Shown one piece after another: positions 2,970-31,011 of a DNA stretch of 42,146 bases. The DNA comes from a virus. Position numbers and translations under genes: made by a program. The DNA lies in the IMG/VR virus record IMGVR_UViG_3300024346_000158, positions 1 to 42,146 of that record, one strand, 5' to 3'. The notes under the pieces are model-generated. The model was not told where the DNA came from. It did not search any database and saw only the letters and a list, made by a program, of their open reading frames with translations. Positions within the stretch are counted from its first letter, which is position 1. The number at the start of each line of letters is the position of its first letter.

Positions 2970-3169
2970 AAATATTTTTCGTAGACGCTTGGGACATCGA
3001 TGCTGATCGGTTATCTCAACGATTTGTTCTTCGGAGTCCGAGTTTTGAAGAAGCTCGAAAGAAGGCACTTGAATGTTCTTCTTATGAAATTGACTATTTG
3101 GTACGTGGGGAAGTCCAATCGTTCATTGCCAACCACTTCCCTAACCTAGAGGATATTAATGATGTTTGA
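2966..3169 (+). CDS. Hypothetical protein, 67 aa
   Basis: The ATG at 2966 overlaps the previous stop in ATGA, which is preferred over a frame-open ATG four codons upstream. The product begins MKIFFVDAWDIDADRLSQRF and contains a helix with FEEARKKALECSSYEID. The family is unknown. Confidence 0.7.
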   Translation: MKIFFVDAWDIDADRLSQRFVLRSPSFEEARKKALECSSYEIDYLVRGEVQSFIANHFPNLEDINDV

Positions 3170-3323
3170 TGTATTATGTTTTGTGTTATCCGCAGCGCTT
3201 ATAATTTTATCTGGGTGGGGAGTTATAATATCCAACGAAATTATAGAGGAACGTAGAGAAAATCGCCGCAACGGTACACACGATTACTACGGTAATAAAA
3301 TTGATGATGGGGACGACCGATGA
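3159..3323 (+). CDS. Small single-span membrane protein, 54 aa
   Basis: The gene overlaps both neighbours (11 bases upstream, ATGA downstream). Residues 2-27 form one hydrophobic segment (FDVLCFVLSAALIILSGWGV), followed by a charged tail with EERRENRRNG and an acidic end. It is probably an inner-membrane protein with its tail in the cytoplasm. No family is recognised. Confidence 0.7.
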   Translation: MMFDVLCFVLSAALIILSGWGVIISNEIIEERRENRRNGTHDYYGNKIDDGDDR

Positions 3324-5390: not shown

Positions 5391-5626
5391 TGAAGACCGT
5401 TCTATTATTAATAATTTGCACGATAGTCTGGACAGTCGCAACTATTAAGATAGAAAATGAATATATAATAGTATTGGCAGAAAAAGATGCTGCTTTTAAT
5501 AAACAGAGAAATCTGGTCTACCAATATGAATCTGTTTTCCGTAGATTAGTACTAGATTGTCAAGACGGTCGAAACCTAATCATACAGAAGAAAATATATA
5601 AATGTTATTTGCTCAGTAAGGTATAA
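5387..5626 (+). CDS. Small protein with N-terminal membrane anchor, 79 aa
   Basis: Residues 4-21 (TVLLLIICTIVWTVATIK) form a membrane helix or an uncleaved signal. The remaining 55 residues are charged and helical, so the protein is probably an inner-membrane anchor with a periplasmic or cytoplasmic coil. The start overlaps the previous stop (ATGA). It could be an inhibitor or a spanin-like part, but nothing specific supports either. Confidence 0.7.
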   Translation: MMKTVLLLIICTIVWTVATIKIENEYIIVLAEKDAAFNKQRNLVYQYESVFRRLVLDCQDGRNLIIQKKIYKCYLLSKV

Positions 5627-8293: not shown

Positions 8294-8340
8294 TTATTTT
8301 AGAAATAAGTGTTGACAAACCCTCTCAATTGTATTATAAT
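8294..8340 (+). promoter_or_regulatory. Consensus early promoter inside an inverted repeat
   Basis: TTGACA (8312-8317), 17 bases and TATAAT (8335-8340) form a perfect consensus promoter for 8375. Upstream is TTATTT-tag-AAATAA (8294-8308), the same inverted repeat at the same spacing as before the promoter at 1102. The -10 box and start site lie in the loop of a 13-bp inverted repeat (8317-8370). Confidence 0.85.
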
Positions 8341-8374
8341 ACCTAGGTATTTTGACGATTGAGAGGGTTTTTTT
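8317..8374 (+). terminator. Terminator-like hairpin spanning the promoter and RBS
   Basis: AAACCCTCTCAAT (8317-8329) pairs perfectly with ATTGAGAGGGTTT (8358-8370), and a run of seven T (8368-8374) follows. RNA read through from upstream would fold into a long-loop terminator-like hairpin that also hides GAGAGGG, the ribosome binding site of the gene at 8375. RNA started at the internal promoter begins after the left arm, so it cannot form the hairpin. The loop also holds the 12-bp palindrome ATACCTAGGTAT (8339-8350). Confidence 0.7.
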
Positions 8375-8536
8375 ATGGAGTATGATGATTCGAGAGTTCA
8401 CGAGGCTGTCAGTTGGCATATCTATTGTCAGGACAATCCTGATTGGTGTAATCTCAAACGAGAGTTAGGGGATATGGGGTATACTGAAGATGAAATCTTC
8501 GAGATACTACTGAATGTACGTGAAGGAGTTTTGTGA
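8375..8536 (+). CDS. Hypothetical early protein, 53 aa
   Basis: ATG 8375 stands directly after the T-run, with GAGAGGG seven bases upstream. The product (MEYDDSRVHEAVSWHIYCQD onward) is acidic and helical, with two cysteines. The function is unknown. It is read from a strong early promoter whose hairpin would silence it in read-through RNA. Confidence 0.7.
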   Translation: MEYDDSRVHEAVSWHIYCQDNPDWCNLKRELGDMGYTEDEIFEILLNVREGVL

Positions 8537-8537
8537 A

Positions 8538-9119
8538 GTGAAAGATAAAGTAATATTAGTAGATTGTGATGGCGTTATTCTCGACTGGGTATATGCCTTT
8601 GAGCAATGGATGAAAAGACATGAGTATTTGCCATTGGTAGATGCCCCTTCGTGTTATGCTATGGATGTGGCCTATGGTTTAGAAAGAAAGGAGATGAAGA
8701 AACTGATTCGTATGTTTAACGAGTCTGCCTCTATCCGAAAGATTCCTCCTCTTCGTGATGCGATCAAGTATATCAAGAAGTTACATGAGGAACACGGTTA
8801 TGTGTTCCATGCGATAACAAGTCTGAGCGACGATCAGTATGCTCAACATCTACGCACCAAAAACCTAATCGAGTTATTTGGCCCAACTGTCTTTGAGAAG
8901 TACGTCTATCTCGACACTGGAGCTGATAAGGACGACGCATTAGAACCTTATCGCGGCACTGGATGTTATTGGGTAGAAGACAAACCAGAGAATGCCCTTG
9001 TCGGTAAGAATCTTGGACTCAACGCCTACTTGATGGCTTGGGAATATAACGCGCACGAATACAATGTGCCTCGCGTCGTCAACTGGAAACAAATGTATGA
9101 GAAGATAGTCGGTGTATAA
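8538..9119 (+). CDS. HAD-superfamily phosphatase (nucleotidase-like), 193 aa
   Basis: The DCDGVILDW motif near the N-terminus holds the nucleophile Asp and the general-acid Asp of HAD phosphatases. ITSLSDD (about residue 92) is motif II, and WVEDKPENA (about 147-155) carries the acidic metal-binding motif. The overall length resembles 5'(3')-deoxyribonucleotidases, but the substrate could also be a sugar phosphate, given its place in a sugar-enzyme block. I prefer the GTG start at 8538, nine bases after AAGGAG and two after the previous stop, over ATG 8514, which has no ribosome binding site. Confidence 0.8.
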   Translation: MKDKVILVDCDGVILDWVYAFEQWMKRHEYLPLVDAPSCYAMDVAYGLERKEMKKLIRMFNESASIRKIPPLRDAIKYIKKLHEEHGYVFHAITSLSDDQYAQHLRTKNLIELFGPTVFEKYVYLDTGADKDDALEPYRGTGCYWVEDKPENALVGKNLGLNAYLMAWEYNAHEYNVPRVVNWKQMYEKIVGV

Positions 9120-9122
9120 ATA
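9115..9122 (+). promoter_or_regulatory. T4-type late promoter
   Basis: TATAAATA overlaps the stop codon of the HAD gene and lies 28 bases before the carbamoyltransferase start. It matches the T4 late -10 consensus exactly, implying late expression of 9151 onward. Confidence 0.75.
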
Positions 9123-13737: not shown

Positions 13738-14385
13738 ATGAAAGCTTTCGTCATTACCATTAAAGGTCACGAAAAATCCGAACAGGTCGCTGATAGATGT
13801 ATACAGACCGCAAAAGACTTCGGGTTAAATGTTGTTAAATTTGATGCGATAACTCCTGCCGATGACATAACGTCCATTTGCGCACGAGAAGTTATCCCAA
13901 TGAATAGATTCGTTGGCCAATACTCCCGTCTAGAAAACTCCGTATCAGCTTTCCTATCCCACTACTCCTTATGGAAAAAGTGTTTTCAACAAAACGAACC
14001 GTTCATTATATTTGAACACGATGCGGTAGTGAACAATCCTATCCCCACAACATTACCAAAATATGTTGGAAACATAGGAAAACCTTCTTACGGAAAGTTT
14101 GTTACGCCTTCTAATGGGTGGGGAAAGTTGACATCCAAACCCTACTTCCCTGGCGCACACGCGTATATCGTAACTCCCCAAGGTGCTAAACTCCTGATCG
14201 ATGCAGCACCATTCAATGCAATGACTACCGATATCTACCTATCACTATCACGATTCGACTGGTTGGAAGAATATTATCCTTGGTCGGCAGAAGCACAGGA
14301 CACATTCACCACAATTCAAAATGTCACGGGGTGTCTCGCTAAACACAACTATGACTCGAACTATGACATAGAAGATGTTAGTTAA
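13738..14385 (+). CDS. GT25-type (LPS) glycosyltransferase-like, 215 aa
   Basis: The protein starts MKAFVITIKGHEKSEQVADR, as GT25 enzymes do. It has AFLSHYSLWKKC (71-82) and IFEHDAVV (91-98) in place of the usual G-C-x-x-SH and EDD motifs, then FPGAHAYIVTPQGAKLLID. Family members transfer galactose or similar sugars to lipopolysaccharide cores. The acceptor here is unknown. The middle Asp of EDD is His here, which may alter metal binding. The end of the gene overlaps the first copy of a palindromic repeat (14377). Confidence 0.75.
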   Translation: MKAFVITIKGHEKSEQVADRCIQTAKDFGLNVVKFDAITPADDITSICAREVIPMNRFVGQYSRLENSVSAFLSHYSLWKKCFQQNEPFIIFEHDAVVNNPIPTTLPKYVGNIGKPSYGKFVTPSNGWGKLTSKPYFPGAHAYIVTPQGAKLLIDAAPFNAMTTDIYLSLSRFDWLEEYYPWSAEAQDTFTTIQNVTGCLAKHNYDSNYDIEDVS

Positions 14386-14490
14386 CTAACAAATTATATT
14401 ACTCAGGAAAAGTGTTAGTTAACTAACAAATTATATTACTCAGGAAAAGTGTTAGTTAACTAACAAATAAATAAATGTTAGTTAACTAAC
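14377..14490 (+). repeat. Four-copy palindromic tandem repeat (operator-like)
   Basis: The 14-bp perfect palindrome GTTAGTTAACTAAC occurs at 14377-14390, 14414-14427, 14451-14464 and 14477-14490. The first three lie 37 bases apart, as part of a 37-bp unit that continues with AAATTATATTACTCAGGAAA. The last spacing is 26. The final unit supplies the AGGAAAA ribosome binding site of the GroES-like gene, so the unit seems to have been copied from that gene's own leader. The first copy encodes the end of the GT25-like protein. Confidence 0.9.
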
Positions 14491-14511
14491 AAATTATATT
14501 ACTCAGGAAAA

Positions 14512-24588: not shown

Positions 24589-24617
24589 TTGACTATTGGT
24601 TCCATAACATGTATAAT
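24589..24617 (+). promoter_or_regulatory. Early promoter with a terminator in its leader
   Basis: TTGACT (24589-24594), 17 bases and TATAAT (24612-24617) lie 95 bases before 24712. The transcript reaches a terminator (24635-24697) before that gene, so it makes either a small RNA of about 75 bases or an attenuated mRNA. Confidence 0.78.
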
Positions 24618-24634
24618 GGGGACTGTGATTTGGT

Positions 24635-24697
24635 GATGGGGTGGTGAGTTCGAAAACTGCTACTGACTGCTATGTTTCACTCCCCATCTGTTTTTTT
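24635..24697 (+). terminator. Leader terminator or attenuator
   Basis: GATGGGG (24635-24641) pairs with CCCCATC (24682-24688), and GTGA with TCAC inside. TG and seven T (24691-24697) follow. The hairpin lies between a strong promoter and the next gene. The loop contains GTTCGAAAAC, which looks like a T-arm piece, but the span is only 54 bases, so it is not a tRNA. Confidence 0.7.
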
Positions 24698-24711
24698 ATT
24701 ATGAGGTATGT

Positions 24712-25023
24712 ATGCACAAGTTTATAAGTTTGCAAGGTCACGTTACGGCCACCTATGATGAGTTAGTACAAGCATTGGGTGAACCTGATTATATGATTAG
24801 TGCCGAGGATGTGGAGGACAAGGTTACGACCGAGTGGTGTTTCAAGGGATACGACTGGGCCGGAGAAGAGATCTCCATTACTGTGTATGACTGGAAGAAC
24901 TTGGATAATGGCATTGACTGCCGAAGTGGAGAACCCCACCGATGGCACATTGGCGGTACCATGAAGTGTGCGGTAGATGTTGTGCTTGGTCGTTTGGGAC
25001 GTTGGGATAACTCTGGTGAATAG
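24712..25023 (+). CDS. Hypothetical early protein, 103 aa
   Basis: ATG 24712 follows ATGAGGTATGT, the same ribosome binding arrangement as before 13738. The product begins MHKFISLQGHVTATYDELVQ and has WCFKGYDWAGEEISITVYDW, then PHRWHIGG. It is Trp rich and looks like a compact alpha-beta domain. The function is unknown. Its stop overlaps the inverted repeat of the next promoter. Confidence 0.75.
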   Translation: MHKFISLQGHVTATYDELVQALGEPDYMISAEDVEDKVTTEWCFKGYDWAGEEISITVYDWKNLDNGIDCRSGEPHRWHIGGTMKCAVDVVLGRLGRWDNSGE

Positions 25024-30307: not shown

Positions 30308-31011
30308 AAAAAATCATCCATGCCTTTTAAGACTCTATTCGAAGTCTCCCCGCATGAAGTACATTTATAGTCTATGTTCTTTTGTACACTTGGTATGTTG
30401 TTAACAAAATCAGCCAGTTTCGTGAACTGATCGGGACTCATTGATTCAATAAAATTGATTATCTCTTCTCGTGACTCATCCTTTACCGAAAACCGTTCTT
30501 CTTCTGTCTGGATAGAGTCCATGCACATGATCAACAATTCGATAAGAGATTCTGTCACACTGGTGCCTTCGAGCATATTAGGGTTGTCTACCAACTCTTG
30601 GTATGTCGGGAACCGCATTTTCACACTTACATCTTTTGTAACTTTAATAAGAGTTGGTTTAATATCGCCTTCAACTTTTACATCCGAAAGGTCTACGTCA
30701 ACTTCGTTGCTTTCAGAACAAGCTGAACACGGTAGTACGATCTTGGTACTTTCTCCTACCGACTTAACACGAATGTTGGTAAATACATAATCTACATCGA
30801 ACGTAGATAGTTCATTTTCTAACGGTTGTTCTACACACGAATGTATAGTTTTAACGATTGCTCGTAACAGACCCTTTCTATCTTGAGTCTCTAAAGCAAT
30901 CAATAAGTTTTTCTGTTCTTTCACTAAGAACGGACGAAATGTAACGGACTGTCCGGTCGAAGGTATTGTCAGAGCATAAGTTGGTGAGTCATTCAGTCTT
31001 GGTAAAGCCAT
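30304..31011 (-). CDS. 26: Baseplate hub assembly protein gp26, 235 aa
   Basis: The protein begins MALPRLNDSPTYALTIPSTG and has VTFRPFLVKEQKNLLIALET, as T4-like gp26 proteins do (T4_baseplate family). Two CxxC pairs (CSAC about 115-118; CTSC about 220-223) probably form a zinc ribbon. It acts in assembly of the baseplate hub and tape measure and is probably a tail assembly chaperone. The frame ends in GATTTTTTTTAG; the run of eight T directly before the UAG stop is the slippery site for gp51. Confidence 0.85.
   Translation of the reverse strand: MALPRLNDSPTYALTIPSTGQSVTFRPFLVKEQKNLLIALETQDRKGLLRAIVKTIHSCVEQPLENELSTFDVDYVFTNIRVKSVGESTKIVLPCSACSESNEVDVDLSDVKVEGDIKPTLIKVTKDVSVKMRFPTYQELVDNPNMLEGTSVTESLIELLIMCMDSIQTEEERFSVKDESREEIINFIESMSPDQFTKLADFVNNIPSVQKNIDYKCTSCGETSNRVLKGMDDFF
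30307..30313 (-). other. Slippery heptamer for -1 frameshifting
   Basis: On the minus strand the gp26 codons read GAT TTT TTT TAG, so T-TTT-TTT is a perfect X-XXY-YYZ heptamer followed directly by a stop. A -1 shift gives TTA GTA AAC and opens the gp51 frame. AAAAGG stands about ten bases upstream and could act as an internal Shine-Dalgarno stimulator. No strong downstream hairpin is obvious. Confidence 0.8.

Follow-up and report, generated by a model that had tools for sequence, protein, structure and literature searches.

A consensus sigma-70 promoter enclosed by a terminator-like hairpin that buries the ribosome-binding site: a candidate gate for own-promoter-only expression in phages

The close packing of phage genes creates a real problem when polymerase runs on from genes of one timing class into those of another. 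How might a gene be kept silent on RNA arriving from upstream and still be made from a promoter of its own? The question is raised by a 63-base stretch of a 42,146-base IMG/VR virus fragment from a marine phage (the window, by which we mean the whole fragment analysed), in which a promoter and a stop signal for transcription share their bases with a ribosome-binding site (RBS). The named record nearest to the window is Phage C48C1 (Kyanoviridae), with 73% identity over 65% of the queried stretch. An element of this kind would solve run-on in about 60 bases with no protein needed.

The promoter, TTGACA-17-TATAAT on the plus strand (8312–8340), matches the sigma-70 consensus at 12 of 12 positions, with the -35 at 8312–8317, a spacer of 17 nt, the -10 at 8335–8340 and a predicted start site at about 8346–8348. 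We call it early-type, a label that here refers solely to the sigma-70 consensus. The window contains six perfect TTGACA-N15-19-TATAAT sites where 0.04 are expected, and only the site at 8312–8340 is enclosed by a strong hairpin that contains a Shine-Dalgarno sequence (SD) and is accompanied by a T-run. The left arm of this hairpin (8317–8332, plus strand) begins at the final base of the -35 and fills the promoter spacer, upstream of the predicted start, and covaries with the right arm (8355–8370, plus strand), which holds the SD GAGAGGG (8361–8367) of the open reading frame (ORF) at 8375. The original prediction had described a perfect 13-bp inverted repeat (8317–8329 with 8358–8370) that encloses the -10 and expected start of a consensus promoter and carries the RBS of 8375 in its right arm. 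We find all of these parts in place, and the repeat extends to 16 bp with one G-U pair (8317–8332 with 8355–8370). Seven T had also been said to follow the repeat. The T7 tract is indeed present (8368–8374, plus strand), where it doubles as the putative terminator tract and the spacer between the SD and the ATG at 8375, but three of its T (8368–8370) pair with 8317–8319 within the stem, which leaves four free. With six G-C pairs in the 16-bp stem and a U-tract directly after it, the hairpin has the composition of an intrinsic terminator. It is missing from the terminator scan of the window because that scan permits loops of 3–8 only, and at Rfam gathering thresholds the window gave no match. 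In read-through RNA only, the loop is predicted to be closed by an inner stem, AATAC/GTATT (8338–8351, plus strand; 8338–8342 paired with 8347–8351), which takes in the last bases of the -10 together with the predicted start near 8347. This inner stem is kept in the relative L031 although the loop there has changed from CTAG to CTGC.

Predicted folds agree with the proposal that RNA from upstream would fold and that RNA from the internal promoter would lack the left arm. Read-through RNA (8312–8377) has a predicted energy of -27.0 kcal/mol (z -6.85, as stable in 0 of 200 shuffles) and an SD unpaired probability of 0.00, whereas RNA starting at 8347, being without the left arm, is predicted to have no excess structure (z +0.93) and an SD unpaired probability of 0.50. 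Overall, the corresponding predictions are 0.00–0.01 for read-through RNA and 0.36–0.81 for RNA from the gene's own start, with L015 as the single weak case (0.33 versus 0.40).

Is the pairing itself preserved among relatives? Eight distinct versions of the orthologous site have 92% of their cells paired, and 10 of the 13 pairs are altered on both sides among these versions. The figure for pairing is inflated because the right arm, being an SD, is rich in purines in any case, a bias that the re-pairing and shuffle controls address. Cells with a double change, counted in registers set per sequence and hence biased towards structure, number 24 as compared with 9.9 in shuffles (as high in 0 of 500), and slid registers give far lower counts. 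For this comparison the arms were aligned alone; MAFFT applied to whole elements misregisters them. All hairpin-bearing orthologues have a run of T6–T7. Both stem and T-run are gone in L029, L024, L104 and C48C1, and in L109 the T-run is broken and the stem weak, so that at the orthologous site the two are kept or lost jointly. The promoter persists without the hairpin in C48C1 and L029 (fold z about 0). Among 71 distinct promoter-plus-RBS leaders, drawn from loci chosen by protein homology, four stems between spacer and leader score at least 15 as compared with 0.29 on re-pairing. The top of that list consists of the window site, its orthologues and L096, and no others stand out. The observation is far above chance.

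The gene behind the element (8375–8536, plus strand) encodes a 53-aa protein without a Pfam or PHROG match. A degenerate peptide scan found no relatives of this protein, and the homologues aligned here, from eight relatives, were identified by position instead. The second gene of the unit (8514–9119, plus strand) encodes a 5'-nucleotidase-like (NT5C) protein (Pfam PF06941, E 1.6e-5; PHROG 420). What follows the element varies among relatives: a 53–64-aa protein, another small protein in L015 and L218, or the nucleotidase directly in L031. Upstream of the element on the same strand lie genes for a phage lysozyme (endolysin) and a GT8-like glycosyltransferase. The T4-type late box TATAAATA occurs 12 times in the window as compared with 2.9 expected, and an exact copy on the plus strand (9115–9122) stands directly before a carbamoyltransferase gene at the downstream edge of the early-type unit. 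Most relatives have a late box on the same strand about 2.7–3.0 kb upstream of the element and another 0.8–1.1 kb downstream, the downstream box being present in nearly all of them; upstream in the window there is only TATAAATG at 5597, as compared with the full late box in relatives. Late-type boxes on either side, on one strand, would thus set an early-type unit between late-type units.

We consider it quite probable that this arrangement works as a gate through which the gene is made from the enclosed promoter and not from upstream RNA. Polymerase coming from the endolysin and glycosyltransferase genes, whose transcripts are presumably late, would copy both arms, and the incoming RNA would fold into an intrinsic terminator with its U-tract ending just before the ATG. 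Read-through RNA that leaked past would still have its SD buried in the stem, termination acting first and RBS burial taking care of the leakage. Transcripts from the enclosed sigma-70 promoter would start between the arms and would form no hairpin, escape termination and leave the SD free, so that production of the two-gene unit 8375–9119 would be confined to the time when that promoter is active. The start site, the termination, the translational block and the early/late timing of this gate are inferred from sequence, the timing being drawn from the class of the promoter. That such a switch would keep 8375 under its own promoter, the central idea of the original prediction, gains support from the covariation, the predicted openness of the SD, the joint loss of stem and T-run and a late version of the device in relatives (below). 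Against the gate stand a loop of 22–28 nt, long for a terminator though shortened by the inner stem, and the fact that the upstream late box of the window is TATAAATG only.

RBS-sequestering hairpins are established in the leaders of T4 genes e, soc, 49 and I-TevI and of Aeh1 mobE (PMC3014915, PMC2988022), and the T4 genes under such control are all late genes (PMC2988022). The element had been likened to T4 gene e with an early-type promoter in place of a late one, an apt comparison. As at gene e, the SD lies within the 3' arm of a hairpin predicted to be stable, upstream transcripts would bury it, and the gene's own transcripts (predicted start near 8347) would lack the 5' arm; the T4 e leader folded likewise has a predicted z of -3.8. 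In T4, however, the late promoter silences late genes on early and middle RNA and the e leader is without a U-tract, whereas the promoter enclosed in the window is the sigma-70 consensus TTGACA-17-TATAAT and the hairpin is in addition a candidate terminator. Lacking a late promoter inside its hairpin, the element falls outside the gene-e set as described. It may best be read as T4 gene e in mirror image with a terminator added, the reverse of the textbook case in that it would silence early-type genes on incoming late RNA and not late genes on early RNA.

The late version is found in relatives, where upstream late TATAAATA promoters are also enclosed by SD-burying hairpins, without a T-run (L137:755-815, L031:2013-2069, L020:1968-2027, L015:1449-1508, L026:1846-1902, L025:120-180 and L098:155-214). 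In L137, for example, a 13-bp hairpin surrounds the late box at 781. Eight of 43 late leaders score at least 14 as compared with 0.43 on re-pairing, and the hairpins mostly lie about 2.7–3 kb upstream of the early element. None was seen at the corresponding gene of the window (5387). These late-promoter hairpins match the T4 gene-e type (PMC3014915, PMC2988022) and, as that type does, enclose a late promoter, which the element of the window does not. Judged by its predicted hairpins, the clade employs the trick with both promoter classes, and the sigma-70 version at the window site adds a putative terminator.

Two other systems invite comparison. In T4-type phages, promoter-early stem-loops (PeSLs, cited in PMC4503421) reportedly combine a terminator stem-loop with an early sigma-70 promoter at gene boundaries. 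The element likewise joins an early-type sigma-70 promoter to the stem-loop of an intrinsic terminator, but its geometry is different from that in the first 50 kb of RB49, where at three clear composites (47732, 45322 and 34481) the whole terminator precedes the promoter and the SD is free. A further RB49 composite, at 3201 (L164, about 3150–3204 on the minus strand), has a 13-bp terminator-like hairpin whose loop contains the -10 and which leaves the SD outside; it may be intermediate between PeSLs and the present element. No composite that buries the SD was seen in those 50 kb. As to copy number, the 42-kb fragment has one element, the PeSL trait compared being many copies that serve as recombination points. 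The transposases of IS10 and IS50 are protected from external transcription in that read-through RNA buries the RBS and RNA from the native promoter does not. The element resembles them in this burial and differs in having a putative terminator, which they lack, and in their mobile-element context. In the literature searched, in which PeSLs were represented by citation only, we came across no account of a sigma-70 promoter lying inside an RBS-burying terminator.

Does the arrangement recur? The exact element was not found in viral contigs. When these were scanned for a promoter, an SD and a T5 run, with no hairpin required, at least 52 clusters emerged, at least eight of them with strong stems (score at least 17) as compared with 0.11 on re-pairing. 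With a pyrimidine run in the spacer added to the pattern there are 30 viral clusters, 23 of which have a stem (4.5 expected on re-pairing) and 11 a strong one at the strict cut-off (0.04 expected); relatives of the window site account for five of the stem-bearing clusters and for none of the strong ones. Applied to bacterial genomes, this pattern yields 85 clusters, 23 with a stem (15.2 expected) and six with a strong one (0.26 expected). Bacterial loci L299, L341, L346, L356, L365 and L372 show a strong stem between spacer and leader and then a T-run. A comparison with scrambled hexamers is biased, part of the loci having been fetched by the same pattern, and the re-pairing tests take its place. 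The strict pattern, which demands exact hexamers and is escaped by weaker versions, was absent from 13 named records (T4, RB49, phi1, KVP40, nt-1, Aeh1, P-SSM2, syn9, T5, HTVC008M, C48C1, XacN1 and Vibrio phage 2.275.O). Genes behind the recurrences encode a metallophosphoesterase, a dUTPase, a deaminase, a sigma-factor-like protein and an RNA ligase, names that, save for annotated records, are readings of the translations. Among named phages it is present in Staphylococcus phage vB_SscM-1, ahead of the RNA ligase gene, and in Pectobacterium phage CBB near 14,180. In CBB, one copy of the gene that the element precedes has a structural-protein annotation, which counts against the gate and implies that 'early' need not apply everywhere. 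L250:1592-1655 and vB_SscM-1 30666-30732 are 82.6% identical over 67 nt, in the element only and at otherwise unrelated loci, which may reflect shared motifs or a moved cassette. The trick, as predicted from its stems, recurs with different letters in related and unrelated phages. On balance we favor the view that this is a widespread and repeatedly evolved element, in which a single hairpin would be promoter spacer, terminator and RBS lid at once and give early-type genes among late ones strict own-promoter-only expression, beside a late-promoter version in the clade. Given its recurrence in unrelated phages, it would serve as a signature by which gene-timing boundaries can be searched for in phages that have not been cultured.

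Termination could be all that the hairpin does. The upstream unit would then have a space-saving, PeSL-like terminator merged with the promoter that follows, and the RBS would be buried incidentally, because the T-run lies right against the ATG. Such a design would fit the co-occurrence of T-run and stem at the window site, the upstream ORFs of the recurrences, which often end 3–15 nt before the -35 as at a compact gene boundary, and the existence of promoter-terminator composites in RB49, one of which holds the -10 within its terminator loop and leaves the SD outside. However, in L093, L096, L136 and L145 a stem that buries the SD surrounds a sigma-70-type promoter in the absence of a T-run (L096 z -5.7), and the late versions of relatives also bury the SD without one. 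Since burial without a T-run is seen with both promoter classes, it appears to be selected by itself in the clade, and we regard termination as the sole function as unlikely. For the gate, these T-run-less variants suggest that RBS burial counts by itself; that T-run and stem go together at the window site suggests that termination also counts.

The repeat might instead act as DNA, its arms forming the two halves of an operator to which a repressor or looping protein would bind; they do lie on either side of the -10, and several relatives have in common the palindrome ACCTAGGT at the start site. A binding protein, though, requires sequence and not complementarity. Here the arm sequence varies among relatives while complementarity is kept, unrelated phages have little arm sequence in common, and the T-run would be left unexplained. 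An operator thus seems very improbable, and on the covariation and re-pairing controls we rejected both this explanation and chance. Equally hard to credit is a mobile recombination cassette, in which genes are swapped behind a ready-made promoter and regulation is secondary. This account has in its favor the different genes that follow the element at the orthologous site (the 53–64-aa protein, that of L015 and L218, and that of L031) and the match of the L250 and vB_SscM-1 elements without a match of their flanks. Homologous recombination depends on sequence conservation, which the diverging arms do not show, and the vB_SscM-1 match may stem from shared hexamers, SD and T-run.

Three further features of the window deserve mention. 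Immediately 5' of the -35 on the plus strand lies an AT-rich TATTTTAGAAATAAG stretch (8295–8309) that resembles an UP element; it is similar in nearly all orthologous elements and recurs at about 1090 in the window. Such TATTTTNNAAATAAG-like stretches (8295–8309, about 1085–1100) precede many sigma-70-type promoters of the clade and may be UP elements or activator sites. At 24589–24712 a strong promoter is followed by an attenuator-like leader with GATGGGG...CCCCATC, a T7 run and ATTATGAGG; as a candidate attenuator we discarded its hairpin (24623–24712), which is no stabler than shuffles (z -0.57). Lastly, a short repeat array at 14376–14491 contains several copies of the 16-nt palindrome TGTTAGTTAACTAACA, which are possible protein-binding sites.
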